48,176 nt of DNA, taken from assembly GCA_005809105.1 (NCBI GenBank), contig SYLI01000087.1, positions 1-48,176 of the forward strand, read 5' to 3'. The position numbers were made by a program, and so were the translations under genes. Positions 32,035-48,176 of the stretch are shown here, one piece after another. Under the pieces are notes generated by a model. The model saw only the letters and a list, made by a program, of their open reading frames with translations. It made no database searches and had not been told where the DNA came from. Source of the DNA: Verrucomicrobiales bacterium (GTDB lineage Bacteria; Verrucomicrobiota; Verrucomicrobiia; Limisphaerales; UBA1100). Numbering within the stretch: the first letter of the stretch is position 1; each line of letters begins with the position of its first letter.

Positions 32035-32052
32035 CGGCTCCACAGTGCCGCT

Positions 32053-32141: not shown

Positions 32142-34562
32142 ATGTTCCGCAGACTGCGCCCCGCATTGCCGGCCATGGCATTGATGGCGCTTGGTGCGCA
32201 GGCCGCACCGGTGGACTTTGCGCACCAGATCGTGCCGATCCTGCGCGAGCATTGCACCCAGTGCCATGCGGGAGACAAAAAGAAGGGTGGGCTCTCGATC
32301 AACACGAGGGCCGAATTGCTGGCGGGCGGAGAGAGTGGCAAGGCGCTGGTGCCGGGCAGCGGCGCCAAGTCGCGATTGATCGAGGCCGTCCTGTCGGCAG
32401 ATCCCGACCGGCGGATGCCTCAGAAGGGAGCGCGGCTTCCGGTTGAGAAGGTGAATTTGTTGCGCCAATGGATCGATGAAGGCGCGGCGTGGCAGGATGG
32501 ATTCACCTTCAAGCCGCCCGCCTACGAGCCACCGCTTCGGCCCCGGCGTCCGGTGTTGCCGCCGGCAAGGGACGGACGCACCCATGCCATCGACCGCATC
32601 CTTGACGAGTACGCCACCCAGCACCGGTTGCCCCGGCCTCAGCCCTTGGCAGACGAGGCGTTCGCCCGGCGTGTGCACCTGGACTTGGTGGGCCTGTTGC
32701 CAGAGCCCGACGCGCTGGACCGGTTTCTCGCGGACACCTCGCCGGACAAACGCGCCCGGCTCGTGCGGGCATTGCTCGCGCAAGACACCACGTACGCCGA
32801 ACACTGGCTGACGTTCTGGAATGATCTGCTTCGGAACGACTATTCAGGAACGGGCTTCATCACCGGGGGGCGCAAGCAAATCACGGGCTGGCTCTACCGG
32901 GCGCTCGTGGAAAACAAGCCCTACGACCAGTTCGTTCGCGAGCTGATCGCCTATTCGCCGGAAAGCGAGGGCTTCGCTGCGGGCATCAAGTGGCGCGGTG
33001 ATGTGAGCGCGGGCGCGACCACTGAAATCCAGTTTGCCCAGTCCGTCGGGCAGGCGTTTCTGGGCATCAACCTCAAGTGCGCTTCCTGCCACGACAGCTT
33101 CATCGACCGGTGGAAACTGGACGAATCCTTCGGACTGGCGGCGATTTACGCCACCGGCAGGTTGGAGATTCACCGGTGCGACAAGCCGGTGGGCAGAACG
33201 GCAAAGGCGTCCTGGCTGTTTCCTGAACTGGGCCAGGTGGACGCGGGCGCGCCGCAGCCGCAACGGCTCAAGCAGCTCGCCGCGCTGATGACTCACCCGG
33301 ACAATGGGCGATTGACGCGCACCATAGTGAATCGCATGTGGCACCGGCTCATGGGCCGTGGCGTTGTGCATCCCACCGACGCGATGCAGACCGAACCGTG
33401 GAGCCATGATCTGCTCGACCATCTGGCGGTGCATCTGGCGGACCAGAAGTTTGACCTCAAGCAAACGCTGGAGCTGATCGCCACATCTGCCGCCTATCAG
33501 TCGCACGCCGAGGTGATGGGCGCCGATGCTGCAGAGCGGGGCTACCAGTTTGCCGGTCCCCGCGCCAAGCGTCTCACCGCGGAGCAGTTCGTGGATGCCG
33601 TGTGGCAAATCACCAGCACGGCGCCCGCGCGCCACGACGCGCCCGTGGTTCGTGGCCGTGCGAGCGTTTCAGCCCCGCAGGACGCGACGACCACGGCGCG
33701 CTGGATTTGGTCCCACGCCAACGCCACCCGCGCGCCCGCGGGCGAAGTGCTCGTGGCGCGCGCCAGAGTGAACCTCAAGTCTGTACCGCTCCGGGCCGGC
33801 GCGGTGGTCACGGCCGACAACAGTTTCGCGCTCTACGTCAATGGAGCGGCGGCCGGTGCCAGCGAGAATTGGGAGAGCCCCGTGGCGTTATCTCTGGCTG
33901 CGCGCCTGAAAGCCGGAACCAACGAGATCGTGCTCGTGGCAAAAAATGGTGGCGCGGGCCCGAATCCGGCGGGGGCGTTCTTCGAGTCAAGAATCCAGCT
34001 CGCGGGCGGGGAAACCGTGACCGTTGGGACGGACACCACATGGCAGGTGACCCAGACCGTTCCCGATAACCGCGGCCGATTCAAGACGGAGCCTGCGGAT
34101 TGGCGTCCGGCCGTGGCGGTGCCCGACGCCTCGGTTTGGCATTCGAGCATCGGCAGACAATTGGGCGCGCAGCTCGCACAGGCAGCGACCAGTCCTCAGC
34201 CCATGGTTCGCGCCTCGCTCATGAAAAATGACTTTCTCATGCGCGGCTTGGGGCGGCCGCACCGGGAACAAATCGTGAGCGTGCGGCCGAGCGACTTGAC
34301 GACGCTGGAAGCGATCGACCTCAACAACGGCCCACTGCTCGCGGCGCGGCTGGAGCAGGGCGCAGCGCACATCCTTGCAAAGCCGTGGCCGGACGCCGAC
34401 GCGCTCGCGCATTGGATTTTCAAATTTGCGCTCTCGCGCAGTCCCGGACCGAAGGAGCTGGCGTCGTGCCGCGATCTGCTGGGCAGGACGCCCACGGCAC
34501 AAGGCGTCGCCGACCTGCTTTGGGCGGTGTTGATGCTGCCAGAGTTCCAACTCGTCAGATGA
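32142..34562 (+). CDS. DUF1549/DUF1553 protein with PSCyt1-type CxxCH and an inserted beta domain
   Basis: The 806-residue secreted protein has a signal peptide (to about residue 22), then VPILREHCTQCHAGDKKKGG, a planctomycete-type cytochrome motif (PSCyt1) with CTQCH at 38-42. The DUF1549 region (AFARRVHLDLVGLLPEPDAL) contains a second CxxCH, CASCH at about 313, in LGINLKCASCHDSF. The DUF1553 region starts near LTRTIVNRMWHRLMGRGVVH. An extra domain of about 125 residues (about 520-645, WIWSHANATRAPAGEV to TWQVTQTV) interrupts it; its pattern LYVNGAAAGASENW suggests a galactose-binding-like fold. These proteins are thought to act in extracellular polysaccharide use in this phylum; no enzymatic activity is proven. 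The DUF1501 gene follows after 4 bases. Confidence 0.9.
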   Translation: MFRRLRPALPAMALMALGAQAAPVDFAHQIVPILREHCTQCHAGDKKKGGLSINTRAELLAGGESGKALVPGSGAKSRLIEAVLSADPDRRMPQKGARLPVEKVNLLRQWIDEGAAWQDGFTFKPPAYEPPLRPRRPVLPPARDGRTHAIDRILDEYATQHRLPRPQPLADEAFARRVHLDLVGLLPEPDALDRFLADTSPDKRARLVRALLAQDTTYAEHWLTFWNDLLRNDYSGTGFITGGRKQITGWLYRALVENKPYDQFVRELIAYSPESEGFAAGIKWRGDVSAGATTEIQFAQSVGQAFLGINLKCASCHDSFIDRWKLDESFGLAAIYATGRLEIHRCDKPVGRTAKASWLFPELGQVDAGAPQPQRLKQLAALMTHPDNGRLTRTIVNRMWHRLMGRGVVHPTDAMQTEPWSHDLLDHLAVHLADQKFDLKQTLELIATSAAYQSHAEVMGADAAERGYQFAGPRAKRLTAEQFVDAVWQITSTAPARHDAPVVRGRASVSAPQDATTTARWIWSHANATRAPAGEVLVARARVNLKSVPLRAGAVVTADNSFALYVNGAAAGASENWESPVALSLAARLKAGTNEIVLVAKNGGAGPNPAGAFFESRIQLAGGETVTVGTDTTWQVTQTVPDNRGRFKTEPADWRPAVAVPDASVWHSSIGRQLGAQLAQAATSPQPMVRASLMKNDFLMRGLGRPHREQIVSVRPSDLTTLEAIDLNNGPLLAARLEQGAAHILAKPWPDADALAHWIFKFALSRSPGPKELASCRDLLGRTPTAQGVADLLWAVLMLPEFQLVR

Positions 34563-34566
34563 ACGC

Positions 34567-36012
34567 ATGAAGGGCATGCCACACGAATCCCCGGACACCC
34601 GCCGCGAGTTTCTCAAACAACTCGCCGCCGCTGGCGCAGCGACCCTGGCGATGGGCGAGCCCCGGCTACGGGCCGATGAGGGGGTGGCGCGCCCGGCGGC
34701 CACGGCCGATGCGTGCATTCTCCTGTGGATGGCGGGTGGCATGGCCGCGCCGGAGACTTTTGATCCCAAGCGATATCAGCCCTTCGAAAAGGGAGTGCCG
34801 GCCAAAAACATTCTCAGCACGTTCCCGTCCATTCCGACGGCGGTGGACGGCGTGCGCATTTGCCAGGGGCTTGAGCATCTGGCCAGGGTGATGGATCGGG
34901 CCACGCTCATCCGCAGCGCCGTCCAGCCGGACTTGGGGCACATCCTCCACTCGCGCCATCAGTACCACTGGCACACGGGCTATGTGCCGCCGCAGACCGT
35001 GGCGTGCCCGCATCTGGGCGCGTGGATGGCCCGGGTGCTGGGCCCGCGCAACCCCGTGATGCCCGCCTTCATCAACATCGGACAGCGGCTGGAGGGGGTG
35101 GGAGAGCAGGAGGAGTTGAAGGCCTTCACCACGGGCGGATTCTTTGGCAGCGAGTTTGGCCCGATGAATCTGCCCTACCCGGACGACGCGGCGCAGTCGG
35201 TGCGCCCGCCCAAGGGGATGGAGCCGGGCCGGTTTTCGAACCGGCAGAAACTCTTCCGCGCCTTGCTGGATGGCAATCCGCAGCGGGACCAGATGAGTGA
35301 CCACCAGCAGCAATCGCTGCTGCGCTCGATGGAGAACGCGCACCGGCTGCTCAGCTCCCGGGAGCGCGCGGCGTTTGACCTCACGCTCGAGCCGCGGGAG
35401 AATTTCGACGCGTACAACACGGGCCGGTTTGGTCAGGGTTGCCTGCTGGCGCGCCGACTGGTGGAACAGGGCGCGCGCTTCGTCGAGGTCACCACCGAGT
35501 ACGTGCCCTTCCTGCATTGGGACACGCACGCCAACGGCCACGAAACCGTGGCCCGCCTTCACCGCGACATGGACCGGCCCATCGCCCGGCTCGTGCTGGA
35601 TTTGGAACGGCTCGGGCTGCTCGACCGCACGTTGGTGGTCATCGCCAGTGAATTCAGCCGCGACGCCCTGATCGAGGGGGTGCCCGGCTCCAACGCCCGC
35701 GATCAGGCCACCGCACCCAGCGACACCCTGCAGGAGGCCAAGCACTACGGGCTTCACCGGCATTGGACCGGCGGCACCAGCGTCGTGCTCTTTGGCGGCG
35801 GAATGAAGCGCGGCTATGTGCACGGCGCCACATCCGATGAGCGTCCCTTGGTCGCGGTGAAGAATCCCGTGAGTGTGAGCGACCTGCACGCGACACTTTT
35901 CACCGCGATGGGCATCAGCCCAAAGACCTCGTTCGATGTCGAGCGCCGGCCCTTCTACGCCACTGAGGACGGCAAAGGCCGCGCCGTCCGCGAGGTGTTT
36001 GCGCGGGGCTGA
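34567..36012 (+). CDS. DUF1501 family Tat-exported sulfatase-like protein
   Basis: The 481-residue protein has a twin-arginine signal (PDTRREFLKQLAAAGAATLA) and belongs to DUF1501, which shares the alkaline phosphatase/sulfatase fold. ACILLWMAGGMAAPETFDPK is the family opening, followed by HSRHQYHWHTGYVPPQ, EYVPFLHWDTHANGHE, VVIASEFSRD and VSVSDLHATLFTAMGI. It is nearly always encoded directly after a DUF1549/1553 gene in Planctomycetes and Verrucomicrobia, and here the spacing is only 4 bases, so the pair is one transcript. The catalytic residue equivalent to formylglycine is not visible as C-x-P-x-R, so it is not a standard sulfatase. A second in-frame ATG at 34576 is an equally good start. 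Confidence 0.92.
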   Translation: MKGMPHESPDTRREFLKQLAAAGAATLAMGEPRLRADEGVARPAATADACILLWMAGGMAAPETFDPKRYQPFEKGVPAKNILSTFPSIPTAVDGVRICQGLEHLARVMDRATLIRSAVQPDLGHILHSRHQYHWHTGYVPPQTVACPHLGAWMARVLGPRNPVMPAFINIGQRLEGVGEQEELKAFTTGGFFGSEFGPMNLPYPDDAAQSVRPPKGMEPGRFSNRQKLFRALLDGNPQRDQMSDHQQQSLLRSMENAHRLLSSRERAAFDLTLEPRENFDAYNTGRFGQGCLLARRLVEQGARFVEVTTEYVPFLHWDTHANGHETVARLHRDMDRPIARLVLDLERLGLLDRTLVVIASEFSRDALIEGVPGSNARDQATAPSDTLQEAKHYGLHRHWTGGTSVVLFGGGMKRGYVHGATSDERPLVAVKNPVSVSDLHATLFTAMGISPKTSFDVERRPFYATEDGKGRAVREVFARG

Positions 36013-37233: not shown

Positions 37234-38838
37234 CTACTTGTCCGCGGCGCCGCCCAACGTCACGCTGATCTTGTACTTGGTCTGCAGGTGGGCGTGCGCG
37301 GTGCTGGCCTGATTGGATTTGGGATACAGCTTGCAGGTCTGCTGGAACCACTTGATGGCATTCTCCATCTGCGCCGCCTCTTCGTACGTGTAGCCGATTT
37401 GAAGCGCCGCCTCCGGCGCAACGCCGCCTTCTGCCCGCGCCTGATTGTAGAGGACGAGCGCCTCGTTGTGCTGCTTGAGTTTGCGATGACACTGCGCCAT
37501 GCGAAAATACGCCCCCGGAAATAAATTGGAGGACCGGAAGGACTGGATGGCCTCGCCGTTCTTGCCGGCCGCTTCGTAGCATTCGCCCATGCCCCAGTTC
37601 CAATCGCCCGACCGTTCCGGCAGCACCTTCAGGAGCACCTGATACGTCGCGATGGCGTTGTCCCATTTGCGGGCGTAGCGCCACGCCGTAACGATGAGCT
37701 GCTGCCATTCGCCCTCTCGATCCTTCGCGGACACAATCAGCTGGTTGTACACGGCGACGGACTGGTCGTACTTTCCCTCCTCGCGAAATGAGAGGGCGGC
37801 CGCTTGCTGCCCCGCGATGGGATCCTTGTACTGCGCGTACACCTTGCGGGCCTCCTCATAGCGCGCGCGCGCCTGATGCCACGCCGCCACTTTGGCGCGG
37901 ATGCCGTCATCCATGCCGATGAGCTTGCCCAGTTGATCCAACGCCTCCAGGCCCTCCTTGTCGCGACGCGCGTAGTGGTGGAGGCTGGCAATGTGGTAGT
38001 AGCAGGCGCGCAGGCGCTGCCGCGACGCGTCATCGGCCGCCACCGGCGCCTGCGCGCGCATAAACTGGTTGGCGTCGTCGGCCACCTTCAATCCCAAGGG
38101 CGCCTTTTCCGTGGTGCCGGTGAGCGTATGGATGGGACTTGCCGCGATGTCATGCACGGCATTGACCAGGCCCTGATCCTTGTAGGTCGTTTGCAGTGCG
38201 CGCAGCCCCTCGGCGAAATTGCCTGCCAGAAAATGGTGCTCTGCCAGAAAGCGGCTGGCCTGCACCGCGTAATGGCTGTTGAGCCCGTCGCGATTCGTGT
38301 TGTACGCAAGCTCCTCCCACAGCTTCGCGCGCTCTGCCGGGCGGTTGCGAACCCGGTGGATGTCCGCCAGATCCCACTTGGCCAGCACGGCCACATGGTG
38401 CGCCGCGTGTGCCGCGATGACCCTGGCGTACGCCTTCTCGGCGTTCTCCGACTCACCGATGTCGTGGTAGGACTTGCCGATGAGGTAGGCCGCCAGCGTC
38501 GCCTCGTGCGATCCGGGCCAGTAGTCGATCACCGACTGGAACCCGTCCTTGATGGCGGTGTACACCTTGCGCTGGCGCGCGACACTGTGGCTCCACATGA
38601 GCTGCGCGTACGCCGCGCCGACGCTGCGGTCGTAGAGCGTGAGAAACTTTTCGTACTCCGACGCCGCCACCTTGTACTCGCCCGTCAGATAAAACTTCTC
38701 GGCCACCTTGAGCTGGTAGCGCTCTGTCTCGCGCATCTTGGCAAACGTGTCCACGGGCATCTGCTCGAGGTAGGTGAGCGGCGCCGCCCGCAACACGCCC
38801 GCCATCAGGATGAGAATCGCACCACCAACGCGTTTCAT
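37234..38838 (-). CDS. Exported tetratricopeptide-repeat protein, last gene of the Exb-type envelope operon
   Basis: The 534-residue protein has a signal peptide (MKRVGGAILILMAGVLRAAP) and then TPR-like helical repeats throughout, such as YLTGEYKVAASEYEKFLTLY, AYLIGKSYHDIGESENAEKA, ALSFREEGKYDQSVAVYNQL, MGECYEAAGKNGEAIQSF, FRMAQCHRKLKQHNEALVLY and QIGYTYEEAAQMENAIKWF. TPR proteins are scaffolds; this one is predicted to be periplasmic. Its start overlaps the stop of the DUF4159 gene by four bases, which couples their translation. It resembles the C-terminal TPR part of the giant protein that begins the operon. The upstream-extended frame to 38961 is a shadow within the DUF4159 gene. Confidence 0.85.
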   Translation of the reverse strand: MKRVGGAILILMAGVLRAAPLTYLEQMPVDTFAKMRETERYQLKVAEKFYLTGEYKVAASEYEKFLTLYDRSVGAAYAQLMWSHSVARQRKVYTAIKDGFQSVIDYWPGSHEATLAAYLIGKSYHDIGESENAEKAYARVIAAHAAHHVAVLAKWDLADIHRVRNRPAERAKLWEELAYNTNRDGLNSHYAVQASRFLAEHHFLAGNFAEGLRALQTTYKDQGLVNAVHDIAASPIHTLTGTTEKAPLGLKVADDANQFMRAQAPVAADDASRQRLRACYYHIASLHHYARRDKEGLEALDQLGKLIGMDDGIRAKVAAWHQARARYEEARKVYAQYKDPIAGQQAAALSFREEGKYDQSVAVYNQLIVSAKDREGEWQQLIVTAWRYARKWDNAIATYQVLLKVLPERSGDWNWGMGECYEAAGKNGEAIQSFRSSNLFPGAYFRMAQCHRKLKQHNEALVLYNQARAEGGVAPEAALQIGYTYEEAAQMENAIKWFQQTCKLYPKSNQASTAHAHLQTKYKISVTLGGAADK

Positions 38839-40859
38839 TTTTTCCTTTGGGTTTGCAGCCACTTGCTGTACTCCGCGTGCGCGTACAGCATCACGTTTCC
38901 TCCCAGCCGGTAGCTCGCCTCCCAGATGCCCCGCGACACCCCGGAGTGGCCGTCGGCCCACGCGTCGCCAATGTCACCCGGATGGTAGTAGGCGGCCAGC
39001 CGGCCATCAATCATCCATCCATAAGCCGTGCTGCCTCCGTGCGGCGCGACGATGGGAATGGAAACCAGCCCGGCGTGGATGGGGTGATCCATCGGCACCG
39101 GCCGGGGCCCCACTCTTGGCAGCACCTGGTTCATCAGGCTGAAGAACTGGCTGTGCCAGCCGCTGCTGCCGCCGTTGTCCGCAAAAAGCATCCCGCGCTT
39201 TTCCAGCAGGTAATCGCGCAGTGTCTCGATCTCCAGCGGCGACAACGGCAGATTGCGCTGGCCGGTGAGATAGACCAGCGGTGGGCTTTTCCCGACGGGA
39301 AACGTGCGCAGCTGGGCGATGCTGAGCACTTCGGGCTTCGGCGCCGTCCTGTGCCCGGTGTTGGCGGCGTACCAGATGAGCATGTTGAGATCGGAGTTAA
39401 GCTCCATGTCCTGATCCCAGTCGCCGTCGGCGTAACGCAGCCGGATGAACCGCACCATGCCCAGGCCCGTGCCGCCGGCAAATCCCGCGCCCTGCCCCTC
39501 GCCCTGTCCGGCCTGATACACATGCTGTGTCAGTGCTTCGAGCTGCAGTCTCACCTGATCAATCGGAGGCGGGTTGAACAGGATGGAGCTGAACGGATTG
39601 ACGACAAACTTCTTCCGGATCACCTGCTTGATCACCTGCACCTTCTGCGGCACGAAGGGCTTGCCGCCGCCTGCGGGCAGCTCGTAGATCTGCTGGCAGC
39701 CCGTGAGGTTGGAGAGCACCGTCAAAATGCACAGGAAGAGCAGGCTGTAACCGCAGAGCGCGCCCAGCGATTGTTTGAGCTTCTGATTGTGGGCACCGTA
39801 GTACCACGCGTTCAAATCAAAGGGGCTTGCCACATGGCCCGGCGCGCGAACGGCCGAATGATCCATCGCTTCCAGGGGGCTGACGGCCGAGCGGCGCGCC
39901 TGCTCGGGGGACAGGCTGGCCAGAACCCGCCGCCTGCCACCGGCGACATACCTGCCCGACGTCAGCAGCCATAAGTCTGCCAGCCACCAGCCTGCCGCCG
40001 TCGCATACAAGAGTGCCGGCCATGGACTCTTGAGCCGGACCGACAGCCACACCGATCCGGCGATGGCCAACATCTTGGCAAGCCCCAGCCCCCACCGGCG
40101 CGCATACCACCTGTCCGCACCGGCAAATCCCGCAATGAGCGCCAGCGTGACCGTGATTTTGAAAGAGCACGCGCTCTGCTCTTGCGATGCGCCGGCTGCA
40201 GCACCAGCTCTCTGCGATTCTTCGCGCCGCTGCGTTTGCGTCTCGACCACCCATAAGGTCCATAGCAGGCCCACGCAAAAGACGACGACGGCTCCACCCC
40301 ATCCCAGCGTCGAACGCCACTGGGCGCTGCCGGCCGATTCAAGCGCGTAGAGCAACAGCTGCCAGAAAGGAAGCAGCGCCACCGAGGCCACGGCCCACAG
40401 GGACCAGCCGGGCCAGCCGCAGTGGGTTCTTAGCCAACGGCCTCCCAGCAGCACCGCGAATGGGAGCGAGACTCCGAAGAGAAATCCTGTCCAGTACAGG
40501 TGTGCAGGCATGTCCGCGTTTCGCGTCTGCGCCGCATACCAAATAAAGCACCATGTCACGACACACCCCAGAACCGATGGCGCGGCAGCCCCAAGGATCC
40601 ACCCATTGCGGGCGCGAACGCTCATGAAGCCGATGCCGCCCACGCCGGCCGCCTTGCGTCCAAGGGCCGCGAGCACGCCCGCCTGTGCCGCCAAAGCCCC
40701 GCCGCCCAATCCCAACGTGAGCCAAACGGGCAGATGGCGCTGGCCCAGGCCGTCACTCAAGAGCCAACCCCAGAAAGCGAGAGCCCACGCACCCCAGCAC
40801 CACTTAAAATGGCGCTCGCAGCTGCCCGCCAGCCATCGGAGTCGCGCGCTTGGAGTCAC
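38835..40859 (-). CDS. Multi-pass membrane protein: TM2-like segment fused to DUF4159
   Basis: The product has 674 residues. Residues about 20-210 carry several membrane helices. Residues about 237-305 look like a TM2 domain (LIAGFAGADRWYARRWGLGL, then WWLADLWLLTSGRYV), here with DR in place of the usual DRFY core. After another helix, residues about 470-674 are DUF4159, a flavodoxin/GATase-like domain of unknown function seen in envelope operons: VRFIRLRYADGDWDQDM, KSPPLVYLTGQRNLPLSPLE, LRDYLLEKRGMLFADNGG and MDHPIHAGLVSIP. The domain probably sits in the periplasm. It overlaps the GYF_2 gene before it and the TPR gene after it by four bases each. I have not seen this exact fusion and order described. 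Confidence 0.85.
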   Translation of the reverse strand: MTPSARLRWLAGSCERHFKWCWGAWALAFWGWLLSDGLGQRHLPVWLTLGLGGGALAAQAGVLAALGRKAAGVGGIGFMSVRARNGWILGAAAPSVLGCVVTWCFIWYAAQTRNADMPAHLYWTGFLFGVSLPFAVLLGGRWLRTHCGWPGWSLWAVASVALLPFWQLLLYALESAGSAQWRSTLGWGGAVVVFCVGLLWTLWVVETQTQRREESQRAGAAAGASQEQSACSFKITVTLALIAGFAGADRWYARRWGLGLAKMLAIAGSVWLSVRLKSPWPALLYATAAGWWLADLWLLTSGRYVAGGRRRVLASLSPEQARRSAVSPLEAMDHSAVRAPGHVASPFDLNAWYYGAHNQKLKQSLGALCGYSLLFLCILTVLSNLTGCQQIYELPAGGGKPFVPQKVQVIKQVIRKKFVVNPFSSILFNPPPIDQVRLQLEALTQHVYQAGQGEGQGAGFAGGTGLGMVRFIRLRYADGDWDQDMELNSDLNMLIWYAANTGHRTAPKPEVLSIAQLRTFPVGKSPPLVYLTGQRNLPLSPLEIETLRDYLLEKRGMLFADNGGSSGWHSQFFSLMNQVLPRVGPRPVPMDHPIHAGLVSIPIVAPHGGSTAYGWMIDGRLAAYYHPGDIGDAWADGHSGVSRGIWEASYRLGGNVMLYAHAEYSKWLQTQRKK

Positions 40860-41524
40860 GGGTTCTTCTTGAGAAGATCGTCCTTCAGGTCAAACGGGTT
40901 GATTTCCTTCGGCTTGCCCGACCTCTGATCGCCGACACCCAGCACGTCGGTGATGGCTTTGGGTTTCCCTCCGGGCGTCGTGCCGACGGGAATGGCGGCG
41001 GCGGGCGTGCCGGACTTTTCGGCAGGCCGATTCTCCGCCGACGGCGCCGGTGCAGCCTGTTTCTTCGGCGGTTGCGGCGTGCTGGTCAATGCCGCCGAGG
41101 CGGCGAAAAGCAACAGAAAGAAGGCCGTGGAAACCACCAGGCCCTGCACCAGCGTGCTCTGGGCAATGGCGCCCAGCATCTCCTTGGGGGAACGACCGCG
41201 CAACTCGCCCATGAACGCCCGCAGTTCGCCGGCCGTCACGGAGGTGTTTCCCTTGAGTCGGGACACCTCACGCGAAAAACCCGAAGCCAGGGGCAGCGTC
41301 GCCAGCGGCTCCCCCGGGGTCTTCCCCCCGCCCCCTTTGGATGCACGCCTGCCTTGGTGTGCCGGCGGCGCATCGGCGAGCGTGGACAGCGGCGCCCAGC
41401 CCGGCGCGCCCTCCAGACAGGCGAGATCGGTCGGCAACAACTTGCCTGCGGCGAGAAGATGGCGCACCTCGGCCAGTTCGAGGGGCCCCAGCGTCTCACC
41501 ATTCTTTAACACGTAGAGTTCCAT
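40856..41524 (-). CDS. GYF_2 domain membrane protein
   Basis: The product has 222 residues. Residues 1-50 (MELYVLKNGETLGPLELAEV, then LACLEGAPGWAPLSTL) match the GYF_2 (DUF4339) domain, a small fold thought to bind proline-rich peptides. A cytoplasmic linker follows, then one membrane helix (LVQGLVVSTAFFLLLFAASA, about 124-143) and an extracytoplasmic Pro/Ala-rich tail ending INPFDLKDDLLKKNP. GYF_2 and TM2 segments are often in one protein; here the TM2-like segment is in the overlapping next gene, so a functional pair is likely. The gap to the ExbD gene before it is 20 bases. Confidence 0.85.
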   Translation of the reverse strand: MELYVLKNGETLGPLELAEVRHLLAAGKLLPTDLACLEGAPGWAPLSTLADAPPAHQGRRASKGGGGKTPGEPLATLPLASGFSREVSRLKGNTSVTAGELRAFMGELRGRSPKEMLGAIAQSTLVQGLVVSTAFFLLLFAASAALTSTPQPPKKQAAPAPSAENRPAEKSGTPAAAIPVGTTPGGKPKAITDVLGVGDQRSGKPKEINPFDLKDDLLKKNP

Positions 41525-41544
41525 GGTCCTAGTCGGAGGGGAGG

Positions 41545-41973
41545 TTATTTCTGGGTTTCCTCAAGGACGTGGTGCAACTCGCCCCCGGCGGCACTGACGG
41601 CCTCAATCACCGGCTCAAAGAACTGCGCCGTGGCGTCCTTGTGAATCTTCAAAAGCACCGTGCGGCGCCCGGCCGGCACGTTGTAGAGCAAACCCTTGTC
41701 GCCCGCCCCTTCGGGGTTCCACAGCGCGGGCCCCAGCTGTTCATGCGAAATCCTCTGGCCGTTGAGATAGGTGACGTTGTCGCGGTCGATGGCCACGCTG
41801 ATGCGCATCGTGGCGGGCTTGGAGAGGGAGGCGCCGCTTGCCGGCACCCACGCGATGTGGCTGTCGTCACGCGCCCGCGCGAGAATCACGAAGAAGATGA
41901 GCAGCAGGAAGGCAATGTCCCCCATCGCGACGGAGGGCACCTCGGCGATGTGTTTGCGGCGGGGCAGGGGCAT
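41545..41973 (-). CDS. ExbD/TolR-family biopolymer transport protein, second copy
   Basis: This 142-residue protein has a short cytoplasmic N-terminus, one membrane helix (VAMGDIAFLLLIFFVILARA) and a periplasmic domain with VAIDRDNVTYLNGQRIS and VLLKIHKDATAQFFEPVIEA, followed by AGGELHHVLEE. The MGDIAFLLLIFF helix carries the conserved Asp used for proton movement in ExbD and TolR. The family works with an ExbB-type pump to turn the proton gradient into mechanical work on the envelope. It lies 4 bases after the first ExbD. The two copies differ considerably, so they probably form a heteromeric pair. Confidence 0.92.
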   Translation of the reverse strand: MPLPRRKHIAEVPSVAMGDIAFLLLIFFVILARARDDSHIAWVPASGASLSKPATMRISVAIDRDNVTYLNGQRISHEQLGPALWNPEGAGDKGLLYNVPAGRRTVLLKIHKDATAQFFEPVIEAVSAAGGELHHVLEETQK

Positions 41974-41977
41974 AAAG

Positions 41978-42394
41978 TCACTGCACGTTCACGCGCTCTT
42001 CGCGCACCAGGGTCACGATGCCCCCGGCCTGCTCAATCGCGCCTGACACATTCATCCAATGCGCGTAGGGCACGTCGGGCTTGCATTTGATGCCGACGAT
42101 GCGGTCCTCCTCGCGCGCCTTGTCGGCGAGCGATCCCCGAATCTGCTTCTCAAATTGCGCCACGGTGAGCGGGTTGCCATTGAGGAACACGGCCGTGCGG
42201 GTGAGGTCCACCTCGAGGTGCTTGGTCTGCTGCTGGCGGCTTTCCTTCTCGGCGCGGGGAATGACCTGCGCCCGGCCCTGTTCCGGCTCGACCGACGCGC
42301 AGACGAGGAAGAACACGATGAGATTGAAGGCGATGTCTCCCGTGGCCACCGCCGGCGGCTCTACGAGCAGCTTGGTCTGGCGGCGGAACTTCAT
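41978..42394 (-). CDS. ExbD/TolR-family biopolymer transport protein, first copy
   Basis: The 138-residue protein has a basic N-terminus, a single helix (AVATGDIAFNLIVFFLVCAS) with the conserved functional Asp, and a periplasmic domain, LEVDLTRTAVFLNGNPLTVA, ending in GIVTLVREERVNVQ. It matches ExbD/TolR. It overlaps the ExbB gene by four bases (ATGA), so synthesis of the pump and its partner is coupled. The helix has Asn after the Asp-Ile-Ala-Phe where the second copy has Leu, a difference near the proton path that may matter. Confidence 0.92.
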   Translation of the reverse strand: MKFRRQTKLLVEPPAVATGDIAFNLIVFFLVCASVEPEQGRAQVIPRAEKESRQQQTKHLEVDLTRTAVFLNGNPLTVAQFEKQIRGSLADKAREEDRIVGIKCKPDVPYAHWMNVSGAIEQAGGIVTLVREERVNVQ

Positions 42395-43374
42395 GTCGCC
42401 TCTTCGCCCTTGCCGGCCTTCGCACCCTTCTGCAGGGTGAGCTGCAAGGACACCGCCTCGACCAGCTCCGACGCCGTCTCCTCCACCTCCAGCACAAAGC
42501 CATTGATGACGCTGGTGAAGTAGTTGTACGCCGAGAAGGCCGGGATGCCGACGATGAGCCCCAGGCAGGTCGTCAAGAGCGCGATGCGGATGCCGGCGGC
42601 CGCGGCCGTGACAATGTTGGTGCCGCCGCCGCCCTGATCGAGCAGCACGATGTCATCGAAGGAGACAATCATGCCCGCCACCGTGCCCAAGAATCCAATC
42701 ATGGGTGCGACGCTCGACACGATCGCGAGGATCGGCAGGTGCCGCTCCATCGCCGCCACCACGTGCACGCCGTATTTTTCCATGCTGTTCACGACCTGTT
42801 CCTCGATGCGCCCGGCGTCGTAGCCCAGCCGCTTGAGCACGATGTATTTCCGAAGCCCGTTGGCGAGAATCGCCGCCACCGGGCCGCGCTCACGGTCGCA
42901 CCGCTCCAGCGCCTGTTCGGCGCGGTCGTTCGTCAGGTCGTCCAACACCGCCTGCCGCAGCGCCTCGCTGTCGGCGTTTAACATCTTGAGGCTGCGCCAC
43001 CGCTCGATGATGACGGCCATCGCCAGGATGCCGCAGCCCAGAATGGGCCACATGAATTCTCCGCCGTCGAACATGTACTTGAGCAATCCACGCCGGGCCA
43101 GGTCATTCACCCACGACGACTTTTCCTCCGCGGCGGGAGGCGCTTCCGTCTTTTCCGGAGCGGGCGGTGTAGGCGCGGGCGCCGAAGCATTTCCCGTCGC
43201 ATTGGAAACGCCCTCCGCCGGCTCCTGCGTGGCGGCGCCCTTGGCGGGCGGCTCTGCGGCGCGCATCGTCGCCATCCCCAGCGACAGCCCGGCGCACAGA
43301 GCCAAGATGGGAGCGTAACGGGCGAACAGGGAAATGCCTCGGGGCAGATTGAGTCGGGCGGCGGGAATCGTCAT
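42391..43374 (-). CDS. MotA/TolQ/ExbB proton-channel family protein with N-terminal extension
   Basis: The product has 327 residues. An N-terminal signal-like helix (ISLFARYAPILALCAGLSLG) is followed by a Pro/Ala/Glu-rich linker, unlike the compact E. coli ExbB (244 residues). The core begins near MFDGGEFMWPILGCGILAMA, continues with cytoplasmic helices, and ends with SSVAPMIGFLGTVAGMIVSF and IALLTTCLGLIVGIPAFSAY, the two helices that line the channel in this family, with the conserved Thr/Pro features. The long frame reaching 43866 is a shadow of the giant gene; the ATG at 43374 overlaps the stop of that gene (43371) by four bases. It would form the pump with the two ExbD proteins. Confidence 0.92.
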   Translation of the reverse strand: MTIPAARLNLPRGISLFARYAPILALCAGLSLGMATMRAAEPPAKGAATQEPAEGVSNATGNASAPAPTPPAPEKTEAPPAAEEKSSWVNDLARRGLLKYMFDGGEFMWPILGCGILAMAVIIERWRSLKMLNADSEALRQAVLDDLTNDRAEQALERCDRERGPVAAILANGLRKYIVLKRLGYDAGRIEEQVVNSMEKYGVHVVAAMERHLPILAIVSSVAPMIGFLGTVAGMIVSFDDIVLLDQGGGGTNIVTAAAAGIRIALLTTCLGLIVGIPAFSAYNYFTSVINGFVLEVEETASELVEAVSLQLTLQKGAKAGKGEEAT

Positions 43375-46300
43375 TTGTTCTCCAAGTCGGCTTCGCGCTC
43401 GAATTGCGCCAGCATTTCGGGCAGCGCCAACCGGCCCCGGGCGTACTTGGCGGACTCGCTCTCGGGATAATCCCAGCGGCAGCGGTTGTAACGCCGGAAT
43501 GCCAGCGGCACATTGTTGGCCATGCGGAAGCTCTCGCCGGACCAAAAGAGCGCTTCGGGTGCGAGCCCGTCGTCGGGGAATTTCTTGCCGAACAGATCGA
43601 AGACCATGGCGGCCTTGGCAAACTGGTCGTCCTTGTAATGGCACTGGCCCCACCGGAACGCCATGCGCGGCGCGTGCTCGTGCGACTCGAACCGGTCGAG
43701 GAATTTCTCCGCCACCTTGGCGGCGATGGAGTACTCCTTGCGTTTGTAGAAGTACTCGTTGATGCGGATCATGACATTGGGCACCAGCGGGCTCTTGGGA
43801 TAGGTGGCCGCCAGCGTGATGTACTCCTCCAGCGCGCGGTCGAAATCCCCGGCCTCCTCGAAGCATTGCGCCAGCTTGTACTGCGAGTCCGGCGCGAGCG
43901 TGTGCATGGGATGCTGGCGCACGATGAGCGCGTAGTGATGGGCCGCCTCGTTCCAGTCCTTGAGCTCCTGGGCAAACTGGCCGGAGAGATAGGCGATCCT
44001 TGGCAGGTGCTTGGGGTCGGGGTAGTCGACCATGATCTCCTTGAGAATGCGCCGGCCGGCAAGCAGCGCCTTGTCGGCCTCCTCGCGCCGTTCCAGCTTC
44101 AGGTTGTTCTTGAAGAGCTCAAAGTAGCTCTCCGCGATGAAAAACTGCGTCTGCGCCGCCAGCTGCGCATTGCCAAACACCTTGCTGAAGGCGGCCACGA
44201 CGCCGTCGGTGCCCACCGCCACGGGCAGATCCAGCGCCAGCGCACTCACCGGCTGGTCGCTGCGCGCATCGGCGTACTGCACCTGCAGTTTGTCGCCAAA
44301 GAAACACTCCACCTCGCGCGCCGTTGCGTTGTGATTGCCCGGCGTGGGCTTCTCGCTCACCCGCAGCACGAGCGCGGCGGTGAACACGCCACTGTGGCTC
44401 AAGGTCTCATCGAGCCGCACCTGCTCGCGCTCGCCCGACTGACTCTGCACAATGACCACCGCGCTGTCGCGATCGTCTGAGACATCCAGATCGGGATCAT
44501 TCACGACGATGAAGAGCTTCTCGCCGACGTGGAGCAGTTCCACGGGCTTGTCGTAACCCTCGTCGGTGACACCCAGCGTGCCTCCCGTGGAGAGGCGCGC
44601 TCTGGCATCCCGCTGCGCGGGCGCGGCCTCCGGACGCCGGTCGTCCGCATAAGTGGCGGTGGCGGTGGCATTGCCCGTCAAGTTCAGCACGGTGTAGAGC
44701 AGGCGGTCGGTGTCATCGGCCGCTTCCGGTTTTTCCCCCGATGCCCGCACCTGTCCCAAAAGCACCTGCGCGTCACCCAACACCCGCGGGATCCTGGTCG
44801 GGCTGTCCGCGCCACCCAATTGCATCCGCACCTGTCCGATGAACCGGCCCGCCAGCAGCGCGGGATTCATCTGCCCGGGATCCGCCACGCCCATCGCGCT
44901 GAACTGGGTTGAAAGCTCGCACCACACATCCACCGCGTTGGTGGTGCCTGCATCAAGCCGCACTCTGACGCGGCTGCGGCTGTCCTTGGCGGCGTCAGGA
45001 TCGATCACTTCGATGGTGAGCGGCACATGGTAGTTGACCTGCGCCGCGGAATCCTCCGCCGCGACCTGCGCCTCCGGAAGATAGACCGGCTGCGGCGCGC
45101 CCTTGACACCCGCCGGAGGCCGCACAAGGCGCGTCTCGATGAAGCGGATGCGCGCGGCGGAAGGCTCGGTGACCATCACAAGGCCCTCGCGATCGACGCT
45201 GTGGCCGGGAAACGTGTTCTGCACGTCCCGGTACCGGCAGAAGATCCGGTCGCCGGGTTTCACCGTGATCTTGCCCGGCGCCGGCGCTGCGCTGGTGTCG
45301 CACTCGATGCGGAATGTGCCGGAGAAGTCCTCCGTTTCCGTTGCGTTGAGCTCGGCCCATTTCTGGCCGTTCAGCCAGATCGTGACCGGCACCGTGTCGC
45401 GCTGCCCGGTCTGATCCATGTCGTAATCCGCGATTTCAAAGGTGACGCGCTCCCCCGGATCAAGCCGCAGTTGTTCCTTCCGAAACTGCTGCACGCCCCC
45501 CGCATTGTCCCGGTTGAAGTCAAAGCTGATGGGCACCACCGACGCGTCGTGGTAGGTCGCGGTGAGCTGCGTGGAGAGCAGCCGGCTGCCGCCCTGCGTG
45601 GCAATCGCCGTCTCGTCGGTGTAGCTGACGGTGATGCTGTCGCCCCCGGCAATTTCAAGAATGCCGTTCTTGGCCAGTGTGCTGACATCCTCCTTGGTGG
45701 GGATGAGCGGCGCGCCCGGCTGCGGCCCGCGCACCTCCACATGGTTCACGGCCACCGAGTCGCCCGTGTACTCATCCACCTGAAACCGAACGTAGCGCAG
45801 GGAGAGTGGGTCGAAGAAGAATTCCCAGGCGCGGTCGCGCAACACCACGGTGGCGCCGGCCGCCGGGCGCAGTTCGATGCCGCCCAGCACCATCAACGGG
45901 CCGCCCGCCAGATCCAGCGGGGTCAGCAGGAGGGTTTTCTCGCCGGCCTCCTCCACATGCAGCGAGCCGATCTTCTGTTGCTGGAACGTCTGCCAGCTGC
46001 CCGTGTTGGGGGCGATGCCGTCCATGATCTGATCGCCCCATTGCGCCCGAAACCGCGTGCCCCCCGCCGCGTGCGCCAAGTTCAGCCAGAGTTCATAGAC
46101 GCCCGGCTGGGCCACGGCCACTTTCCATTGCAACACATCCTCCAGCGCCGACCAGTTGCCCACCCACTTCACCTCGGGCTTGGATCCCGGCACGAGGCCG
46201 AAGGTGGGCGTCTTCTTTGTGAACGACACCTGCTTCTCGAAATCCGCCACGACGGACGCGCCCGCCACCCGTTCCTGTGTCGCGCCCGCGCCGCCGAAGA

Positions 46301-48176
46301 GCCGGGCGGCGTCCTGCAGATCAAAGTCGCCCTTCACGAACGGCGAGGGTCGCGGCACGCTGCTGCTCAAGTTGGACCGCGCGCGCAAGGCCGTGGCGCC
46401 CGACTGCGCCGTCTTGAGCGCCACGAAAACCGCCACGTCGTGCAATCCCGCCCGCAGCCACACATCCGCGGATTTGGGGCCCGCGGCCGGCAGGATTTCC
46501 ACCACGCCGTCCACCGCCAGGGCGACCAAGTCGCCCGACAGATCCACCCGCAGGGCGCCCTCGCGCGCCTGCACAAGCTTGCCATGCCACATCACGGCAT
46601 GGGGTTGATTGGCGCCGGGCTGCCCCGCCTCGATGCGCCAGCTCAGTTCAGTGGCGTTGGATTCGGCGGCCACCTTGCCGGCGCGCCCCAGCGCGGCCAC
46701 CTGGGCCCATGTCTTGTAGCCGGTGTAGTCGCCCGTGAACACCCGCCGGGTCATCCCGCCTGATTGGGCCGCGGGAAAATCCGCGCGGGGCCGCGGAGGC
46801 TGCGACGCCAGGGTGAACCAGTACACGCCATCGTGGCTGCCCAAGAGCGAGCCGCGCACGGGCGCGTGCTCGGCCGGGCTGGGCGTGGAGACACGCACGC
46901 GGCCCACGTCGTGCAGGTGCTTCATGTCCACCGTCAAGAGCTTGGGCGTCGCGCCATCGGGCGCGCTTTGCCAGTACGTGTCGCGGCTGTGGTCGATGGC
47001 CATGAGCGGGCTGTGGTCGATGGCGGCGTCGGTGGCCGCCGCGCCGGCCGGCAGTTCCGCCGTCGCGATGGTGGCGTTAAACATGCCGGTGTGCGGGCCC
47101 GTCTCCATGAGCTCAATCTGGACTTGGTCGCCGCTGGAGGATTGAAGTTTGACCAGCACCCGGTCGGGATCGTTGCCCAGATCGCGGTCGGCGTCCTTGA
47201 CCCTCAGGAAAACCCGGTTGCCCGGCTTCACCTGATTCTGCGGGCGCCCCTGCGACCGGCGATTGTCCACGTTCTCACCCGTCTGTTGCTCGCGGCGGAG
47301 GCGCTGGGTCAGCGTCTCTCGTTCCTCGTCGGAAATCTCGCTGCTGGCCGCCGCAAATTCCGCATCGGCCGCGACGCGAATCTCCACGTCGGAGAGCGGC
47401 ACGGTGCGAAACTGCGCCTTGAACTCCGCGGGGTAGTCGCTCTCGATGACGTCCTTGCCGGTGAGCTGCAGCACGCCATCACCGGCGGCCGCCGCGCCCA
47501 GCGCGGTGGCGACCTCGCCACGGAACAATCCCTTGCCCGCACCGGCGGCACTCTGCAGGTACACCATCTCGCGGTCGCCTCCGGGGCGCGTGGTGACGAT
47601 GACCGGGATGCGGCTCTGTCCACGGCTCACACCCAGATCACGGTCATGCACGACAAACGACAGCGCGCGCCCCGGCGTGTGCAGCCGCTTGCTGTGCTGG
47701 CCCAGCCGGCCCACGGTGCGCAGCAGGTTGAGCTGCTCCAGGTAGCGCTGCTCCAGCCCGTAGATTTCCGAGAGGCTAAAGAGCGTGCGGTTGGCCAGCT
47801 CCACATCGGGCACCCGCTCGAGGATGCGCTGGAAGAGATCGCGGGCCTCTTCGCGCTGATCCTGCCGGAATGCCAAGAGGCCGGTGAGGAACTGCGCGCG
47901 GATGGAGATGGTGAGGTCGGGATTTTCCTCCAGCTCCTTGAACGACAGCGCGGCCTGATCATAGATGCGCTGGGCCATGAACGCCTCACCGATGCCAAAG
48001 CGCGCCTCGATGGCGTGCGGCGTGCCCGCGTAGCGGTTGGTCACGGTGGAAAACTCGACACGCGCCACCTCGTAACGCTGGCCGCGGATATAGCTGCGAG
48101 CCAGAAGCAGCTGCAGCCGGGCCTTGGCGTCCTCGGTCTGCTCGCGGCTCTCGGGCTTGTCGGGATCCGTGAACCG
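43371..48176 (-). CDS. Giant envelope protein: TPR repeats, beta-sandwich repeats and discoidin-like domains, 5' end beyond window
   Basis: The frame is open from the right edge to its stop, 1601 residues visible and the start not seen; the first internal start-like codon (GTG, 48068) is not the true start. Residues about 1-130 and 1330-1601 are TPR-like (AEKFLDRFESHEHAPRMAFR, KLAQCFEEAGDFDRALEEY). The middle holds repeated beta-domains with acidic starts, for example VHDRDLGVSRGQSRIPVIV, KDADRDLGNDPDRVLVKLQS and NDPDLDVSDDRDSAVVIVQS, then SGDQ/SGER and ETGPHTGMF/ETLSHSGVF. A coagulation-factor-5/8-like segment lies near residue 389 (AIDHSRDTYWQSAPDG). It is presumably the surface or periplasmic arm moved by the ExbB/D pump encoded just downstream. 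Confidence 0.85.
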   Translation of the reverse strand, partial: RFTDPDKPESREQTEDAKARLQLLLARSYIRGQRYEVARVEFSTVTNRYAGTPHAIEARFGIGEAFMAQRIYDQAALSFKELEENPDLTISIRAQFLTGLLAFRQDQREEARDLFQRILERVPDVELANRTLFSLSEIYGLEQRYLEQLNLLRTVGRLGQHSKRLHTPGRALSFVVHDRDLGVSRGQSRIPVIVTTRPGGDREMVYLQSAAGAGKGLFRGEVATALGAAAAGDGVLQLTGKDVIESDYPAEFKAQFRTVPLSDVEIRVAADAEFAAASSEISDEERETLTQRLRREQQTGENVDNRRSQGRPQNQVKPGNRVFLRVKDADRDLGNDPDRVLVKLQSSSGDQVQIELMETGPHTGMFNATIATAELPAGAAATDAAIDHSPLMAIDHSRDTYWQSAPDGATPKLLTVDMKHLHDVGRVRVSTPSPAEHAPVRGSLLGSHDGVYWFTLASQPPRPRADFPAAQSGGMTRRVFTGDYTGYKTWAQVAALGRAGKVAAESNATELSWRIEAGQPGANQPHAVMWHGKLVQAREGALRVDLSGDLVALAVDGVVEILPAAGPKSADVWLRAGLHDVAVFVALKTAQSGATALRARSNLSSSVPRPSPFVKGDFDLQDAARLFGGAGATQERVAGASVVADFEKQVSFTKKTPTFGLVPGSKPEVKWVGNWSALEDVLQWKVAVAQPGVYELWLNLAHAAGGTRFRAQWGDQIMDGIAPNTGSWQTFQQQKIGSLHVEEAGEKTLLLTPLDLAGGPLMVLGGIELRPAAGATVVLRDRAWEFFFDPLSLRYVRFQVDEYTGDSVAVNHVEVRGPQPGAPLIPTKEDVSTLAKNGILEIAGGDSITVSYTDETAIATQGGSRLLSTQLTATYHDASVVPISFDFNRDNAGGVQQFRKEQLRLDPGERVTFEIADYDMDQTGQRDTVPVTIWLNGQKWAELNATETEDFSGTFRIECDTSAAPAPGKITVKPGDRIFCRYRDVQNTFPGHSVDREGLVMVTEPSAARIRFIETRLVRPPAGVKGAPQPVYLPEAQVAAEDSAAQVNYHVPLTIEVIDPDAAKDSRSRVRVRLDAGTTNAVDVWCELSTQFSAMGVADPGQMNPALLAGRFIGQVRMQLGGADSPTRIPRVLGDAQVLLGQVRASGEKPEAADDTDRLLYTVLNLTGNATATATYADDRRPEAAPAQRDARARLSTGGTLGVTDEGYDKPVELLHVGEKLFIVVNDPDLDVSDDRDSAVVIVQSQSGEREQVRLDETLSHSGVFTAALVLRVSEKPTPGNHNATAREVECFFGDKLQVQYADARSDQPVSALALDLPVAVGTDGVVAAFSKVFGNAQLAAQTQFFIAESYFELFKNNLKLERREEADKALLAGRRILKEIMVDYPDPKHLPRIAYLSGQFAQELKDWNEAAHHYALIVRQHPMHTLAPDSQYKLAQCFEEAGDFDRALEEYITLAATYPKSPLVPNVMIRINEYFYKRKEYSIAAKVAEKFLDRFESHEHAPRMAFRWGQCHYKDDQFAKAAMVFDLFGKKFPDDGLAPEALFWSGESFRMANNVPLAFRRYNRCRWDYPESESAKYARGRLALPEMLAQFEREADLENK

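Follow-up and report, generated by a model that had tools for sequence, protein, structure and literature searches.

A conserved gene module in Verrucomicrobiota predicted to encode a proton-driven trans-envelope machine with two ExbD subunits and a giant TPR protein

An eight-gene operon of a Verrucomicrobiales bacterium encodes an ExbB subunit, a heterologous ExbD pair, two membrane-anchored proteins and three exported TPR proteins, and these components co-occur strictly in other genomes of the phylum. The locus probably represents a dedicated trans-envelope machine powered by proton motive force, and its status as a distinct machine of this proton-driven type is well supported. The evidence comes from gene content and order, co-occurrence across genomes, conserved residues and comparison with described motor systems.

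Organization of the operon

The window analysed here is the whole of contig C80 (48,176 nucleotides), from a metagenome-type assembly of 2.99 Mb in 106 contigs that is 96% complete. Minus-strand genes fill positions 37,234–48,176. The initial annotation had placed seven there, and all are present at the right place and on the right strand, in the order giant TPR protein (cut), ExbB, ExbD1, ExbD2, GYF_2 protein, TM2-DUF4159 protein and TPR protein. Four of the six junctions had been described as ATGA overlaps. Four overlaps do exist, but only those of giant/ExbB, ExbB/ExbD1 and DUF4159/TPR are ATGA, the GYF/DUF4159 overlap being GTGA. Gaps of 4 nt and 20 nt separate ExbD1 from ExbD2 and ExbD2 from the GYF gene, respectively. 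Promoter and terminator scans of the locus gave nothing informative, and a plasmid search returned no match.

The protein of over 1600 residues has 1,601 residues in the window, but it is not complete, as the contig edge cuts the 5' end of its gene. Residues 1–1044 are encoded on contig C20 (C20:1–3134, minus strand) and are 74% identical to the full protein of a neighbour species. Judged from that homologue, about 4 bases are lost between C20 and C80, and the full giant has about 2,646 residues. Before the giant gene lies an eighth gene (C20:3155–5542), encoding an exported TPR/Ig-like protein of about 795 residues, here called UP, which is 81% identical to that of a relative. Since C20 carries both the N-terminus of the giant and UP, the operon comprises eight genes, all of which form one unbroken run in the sister genome.

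Upstream of the operon, at a distance of a few genes, contig C20 also encodes a second GYF_2 protein (L061:11406–12650, 414 aa). Elsewhere in the window, a PSCyt1-PSCyt2-PSD1 + DUF1501 gene pair of a type common in the superphylum (32,142–36,012) adjoins a FAD_oxidored-Golvesin_C gene (29,950–32,043).

Distribution and co-occurrence of the module

The module is conserved in about 40 loci, with the same content and rearranged gene orders. Window-type loci read UP-giant-ExbB-ExbD1-ExbD2-GYF/tail-DUF4159-TPR. A second type within the same taxonomic order has a single ExbD (UP-giant-tail-DUF4159-ExbB-ExbD-TPR), and other classes of the phylum show giant-TPR-UP-ExbB-ExbD-ExbD-tail-DUF4159 or UP-giant-(unassigned ORF)-ExbB-ExbD-ExbD-tail-DUF4159. 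The tail-protein profile was rebuilt from the loci then known, and its matches in L127–L139 (63–120 bits) lie outside the training set. In G310 and G386, the motor set and the giant are encoded at separate places, the giant of G310 sitting with TPR and UP.

Co-occurrence was assessed with a profile of the DUF4159 core (A1) and a second, independent profile that covers the C-terminus of the giant (A2). A1 matched 24 of the 387 genomes sampled across the phylum and 15 of the 217 sampled from the order, while A2 matched 23 and 17, respectively. Both components were found in 23 genomes of the phylum sample, DUF4159 only in one, the giant only in none and neither in 363 (Fisher p 4e-36); the corresponding numbers in the order sample were 15, 0, 2 and 200 (Fisher p 3e-21). 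All three exceptions are contig ends: in G436, a fragment of the giant (238 aa) sits at a contig edge, G006 reads giant-ExbB-ExbD-ExbD up to the edge, and G520 giant-tail. The module is strict in content and patchy in distribution, being present in 6–8% of the sampled genomes (about one in fourteen) and missing from many good genomes of the window's own family. A DNA-pattern scan of the genome collection had a single match, the sister genome (a Pedosphaera MAG from Baikal). Some genomes carry more than one giant gene: the complete 5.7 Mb genome G376, of the same class, has three, two of them in neighbouring sets (L094 and L147; contig C1, 283–319 kb), and G327, G225, G116 and G381 have two each.

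The co-occurrence and the conserved content rule out a chance gene cluster. DUF4159 as a generic orphan domain was likewise rejected: score and coverage set the form found in the module apart from other DUF4159 proteins. Proteins outside the module in relatives are mostly frames of about 270–420 aa with low scores, matched over the DUF4159 domain only, and with others (e.g. in Caulobacter) this domain is what is held in common. Pairwise gene-tree distances were correlated for all component pairs (r 0.60–0.99; none of 200 permutations was as high), which fits inheritance as a unit; such congruence also follows from simple co-inheritance and is no proof of interaction. Literature searches on ExbB/ExbD with GYF, Verrucomicrobia, planctomycetes and giant proteins found no account of this operon, nor any paper naming DUF4159, most subscription papers lying outside the search. 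Conservation across the phylum, as opposed to scattered homologues, and the lack of a published description among the papers searched both favour the initial reading of the locus as something new.

A predicted motor with two different ExbD subunits

ExbB (327 aa; 42,391–43,374, minus strand; PF01618, E 2.5e-23) begins with an ATG overlapping the stop of the giant gene. It is followed by ExbD1 (138 aa; 41,978–42,394, minus strand; PF02472, E 9.7e-15) and ExbD2 (142 aa; 41,545–41,973, minus strand; PF02472, E 2.6e-13). With PF01618 and PF02472 matched above cut-off, the operon contains motor subunits of the TolQ and TolR type. The only PDB matches to ExbB are ExbB and TolQ, and TolQ is its best NCBIfam model, at a score under the cut-off. 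The N-terminal extension of ExbB is missing in most relatives outside the window's clade. Both kinds of residue expected of the 5:2 motor superfamily of ExbB-ExbD and TolQ-TolR are present. Thr231 and Thr269 of ExbB (window numbering) are invariant (100% in the alignment), and the transmembrane, proton-binding Asp, kept in ExbD1 and ExbD2, is found in 67 of 67 ExbD sequences.

In a tree of these 67 sequences, the ExbDs fall into a first-position (n = 30) and a second-position group (n = 28), with ultrafast bootstrap values of 90 and 97, and the single-ExbD types form a third group (98). The tree points to ExbD1 and ExbD2 as an anciently duplicated, heterologous pair that has been retained as a pair. 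Such an old duplication, kept paired, would be expected of a heterodimeric axle.

Several other motors are encoded in the genome. Contig C93 carries a complete Tol-Pal cluster, TolQ-TolR-TonB_C-TolB(PD40)-Pal(OmpA), C2 an ExbB-ExbD-TonB_C locus, C51 a further ExbB locus and C89 flagellar genes next to a match of MotA type. In the operon proteins, neither a TolB propeller nor a Pal lipoprotein domain was detected with Pfam and NCBIfam, nor was a TonB C-terminal domain (PF03544/PF13103), which is present at other loci of the genome. The absence of TolB, Pal and TonB that had been claimed is thus true of the operon and not of the genome. Replacement of Tol or Ton is ruled out, as the genome has both; the proposal of a new energised envelope machine is supported as regards a distinct machine conserved across the phylum, with surface motility, polymer transport and envelope integrity as possible outputs. 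Given separate Tol-Pal, TonB and flagellar genes, the module is an additional motor.

The module shares with Tol-Pal and TonB-ExbB-ExbD the type of motor, SxxxH-type helices in relatives and a TPR accessory protein. It differs in having two different ExbDs, a giant TPR-Ig scaffold and no TolB, Pal or receptor, and its two putative transducers carry GYF, FHA, Zn-ribbon or TM2 together with DUF4159, and not the C-domain of TonB or TolA. One could suppose an envelope-integrity system akin to Tol-Pal, in which the motor tensions the outer membrane via the giant TPR proteins. The top score of ExbB against TolQ, TPR subunits resembling YbgF/CpoB and the TolA-like transmembrane helices of the relatives' transducers would suit such a tether. 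We nevertheless consider it unlikely, since the conserved set has no TolB or Pal homologue, a complete Tol-Pal cluster lies elsewhere in the genome, and a module of such low frequency, which many members of its family lack, is unlike housekeeping envelope maintenance.

Two transducer-like proteins

Protein 1 (40,856–41,524, minus strand; PF14237, E 9.9e-9) is bitopic, with a cytosolic GYF_2 domain, a conserved juxtamembrane stretch, one transmembrane helix and a periplasmic tail of about 70 residues ending NPFDLKDDLLKKNP. In relatives, this slot is occupied by a small protein, likewise bitopic, whose transmembrane helix carries SxxxH, e.g. VSTVIHVVVLGGTSF. The GYF and small transmembrane proteins are joined by slot, helix and tail motif, their sequence homology being modest. 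The His is found at one column in 30 of 39 rows, and Ser, Ala or Thr occupies position −4 in all. Protein 2 (38,835–40,859, minus strand; PF13709, E 1.1e-25) has a multi-TM, TM2-like N-terminus (the TM2 match is weak), a last transmembrane helix ending Gly-Cys, a Lys-rich linker carrying VNPFSSILFNPPP, and a C-terminal DUF4159, a domain that occurs once in the window's genome. SxxxH is present in the last helix of the DUF4159 protein in 25 of 43 rows, in most followed by Gly-Cys and then by a linker rich in Lys that bears a V/INPxS motif. A remote match to PDB 4i66 was the only one for DUF4159, and AlphaFold2 prediction of this part from one sequence gave no usable fold (pLDDT 35).

TolA and TonB bind their motors through a Ser/His/Leu/Ser (SHLS) transmembrane motif, of which SxxxH is a part (PMC12204202); the counts given here cover the Ser-to-His part only. 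The TolA/TonB-like SxxxH of the relatives makes both anchored proteins look like force transducers. This part of the motif, found in most relatives of both proteins, is absent in the window's own clade, where the His is missing from both (0 of 8 and 0 of 9 rows); this is the same clade that has the longer ExbB N-terminus. Here, either docking to the motor must differ, or one or both proteins are not transducers.

The closest published idea is a family of TPR-tolQ-tolR-tolR-vWA operons with vWA force transducers, described in 2025. These operons share with the module a heterologous tolR pair, a TPR gene, a distribution in PVC bacteria and, as far as the SxxxH part in relatives goes, an SHLS-type transmembrane transducer (PMC12204202). 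The two could be one and the same if DUF4159 were the so-called vWA fold. The common logic of motor, TPR protein and transducer, SxxxH in the transducers and the report of vWA operons in Verrucomicrobia (PMC12204202) are in keeping with this identity. No Pfam vWA match was found in the operon proteins scanned, however, and most DUF4159 proteins of the module are multi-TM. The C-terminal domain in the module is DUF4159, which comes with a second transducer and two giant or large TPR-Ig proteins, and the published account makes no mention of a giant, an approximately 800-aa partner or a GYF/tail protein (PMC12204202). We regard identity with the vWA operons as improbable.

Cytosolic domains vary among loci: GYF_2 in the window, a weak Zn-ribbon on transducer 1 at L098, and an N-terminal FHA domain on the DUF4159 proteins L095:5170–7482 (E 7e-15) and L103:11085–13154 (E 7e-17), as in myxobacterial GltG. 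This variation looks like a changeable control input.

Other features of these loci were noted. In many DUF4159 proteins, the Gly-Cys at the end of the last helix sits in a lipobox-like context (LTGC, LSGC, IPGC); if lipoprotein-type cleavage took place there, the DUF4159 domain would come free of the transmembrane part. At L052:3536–9181, the DUF4159 protein has expanded to 1,881 residues and holds some three TM2 repeats as well as numerous predicted transmembrane helices. In one sub-group (L105, L107, L110, L111 and L138), the DUF4159 gene is followed by a gene for another membrane protein (366–935 aa) with a similar N-terminus and no Pfam match above cut-off. At L098:272–7587 (minus strand; genome G167), a second motor cluster adjoins the module, encoding a 1,091-aa TPR protein, a 269-aa TPR protein, ExbB, ExbD, ExbD and a 497-aa protein. 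The last of these combines a SIVIH transmembrane helix with a squalene-hopene-cyclase-like C-terminal domain and is apparently another kind of transducer.

Exported TPR proteins

By inspection, the giant, UP and the smaller TPR protein all start with apparent Sec signal peptides without an evident lipobox. The smaller protein (37,234–38,838, minus strand; TPR_6, E 6.2e-17) has 534 aa from an ATG overlapping the DUF4159 stop; its repeats are YbgF/CpoB-like, and its score against the YbgF model is below that model's cut-off. In the giant (C-terminal 1,601 residues at 43,371–48,176, minus strand), TPRs, of YbgF/BamD type at the C-terminus, are combined with Ig-like stretches that weakly resemble an anammox S-layer protein model, and with F5/8C-type and CBM35/DUF5077-like matches near threshold. 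AlphaFold2 modelling of its C-terminus was confident for the TPR part only (mostly >90 pLDDT), the best PDB matches of which were consensus TPR proteins and BamD. As these matches are generic, no function was deduced from them. The conserved gene set showed neither an outer-membrane barrel nor an adhesin nor a TonB C-terminal domain.

Verrucomicrobiota are known polysaccharide degraders, and this general background, together with the F5/8C-type and CBM35/DUF5077-like matches, would accord with energised, Ton-like uptake of a large polymer, the carbohydrate-binding-like modules of the giant catching glycans. No TonB-dependent receptor, SusD or glycosidase was recognised among the conserved partners, and the genome has a separate TonB locus, which leave polymer uptake with little likelihood.

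Comparison with the gliding machinery of Myxococcus

The Agl-Glt and Agl-Nfs machineries of Myxococcus, which serve gliding and the spore coat, resemble the module in having one TolQ and two TolRs, transmembrane proteins bearing FHA and GYF/Zn-ribbon domains, and a giant TPR protein with further exported TPR proteins (PMC3169522, PMC3858216). GltI is a TPR protein of 4,132 aa and GltG combines FHA with TonB (PMC3169522). The AglR plus AglQ/AglS layout is matched, as a comparison of layout only, by a single ExbB accompanied by two ExbD paralogues that are ancient and retain the Asp. The module differs in containing DUF4159 and in having no TonB_C, Glt outer-membrane proteins or MglA. The models of GltG (FHA-TM-TonB) and GltJ were matched via FHA or GYF only, far below cut-off. 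The window's genome yielded no MglA, its only PF00025 match lying in an 835-aa frame. These results rule out membership of Agl-Glt, which is kept as an analogy of architecture only.

The module could still be a Verrucomicrobiota counterpart of Agl-Glt/Nfs, with an AglR/AglQ/AglS-like motor, GltG-like (FHA) and GltJ-like (GYF/Zn-ribbon) transducers and a GltI-like giant, with gliding or the movement of a surface polymer as its task. Besides the single TolQ with two TolRs and the giant TPR protein, points in its favour are the FHA domain that transducer 2 carries at two loci, the weak Zn-ribbon of transducer 1 at a single locus, and the several module copies of some genomes. For the GYF_2 of the window, GltJ was the only NCBIfam match (E 0.049) and the GYF domain of GltJ (AgmX) the best PDB match (E 0.32). 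All these domain matches are generic, however, likeness to the Glt models being limited to FHA, GYF and TPR domains, and neither a TonB_C domain nor Glt outer-membrane proteins nor, in the window's genome, MglA were found. Overall, this counterpart is conceivable but rather unlikely. According to a 2011 study of Agl-Glt, many bacteria without documented gliding have a core complex of no known function, so shared architecture does not imply gliding.

Proposed machine and its implications

We propose that ExbB and ExbD1/ExbD2 would assemble into a 5:2 motor with a heterodimeric axle, moved by proton flow through these subunits. Both anchored proteins would sit on the motor like TolA or TonB and pass force across the periplasm to the giant and its smaller TPR/Ig-like partner, a putative periplasmic or surface scaffold that would be pulled or moved. 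The swappable cytosolic domains (GYF_2, Zn-ribbon and FHA) may switch the motor on and off. By analogy with Agl-Glt/Nfs, the most likely output would be to move some structure of the envelope or surface, or to put it under tension, rather than nutrient import, a view that we hold weakly; motility is possible. Tentatively, the module may represent an undescribed class of proton-driven trans-envelope machine, with a heterodimeric-ExbD motor, two different switchable transducers and a TPR-Ig scaffold of about 2,650 residues, spread as a unit across Verrucomicrobiota, in which the window's sub-lineage would couple force without the canonical transducer His.

To our knowledge, only a few jobs are known for 5:2 proton motors, namely flagella, Ton, Tol, gliding and type 9 secretion. 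The module is a defined gene set for asking how the cytosol regulates such motors, whether heterodimerization of an ExbD axle can be obligate and how force is passed through the wall. It also provides DUF4159 with a context, and uncultured Verrucomicrobiota with a concrete candidate for either surface movement or transport in the envelope.
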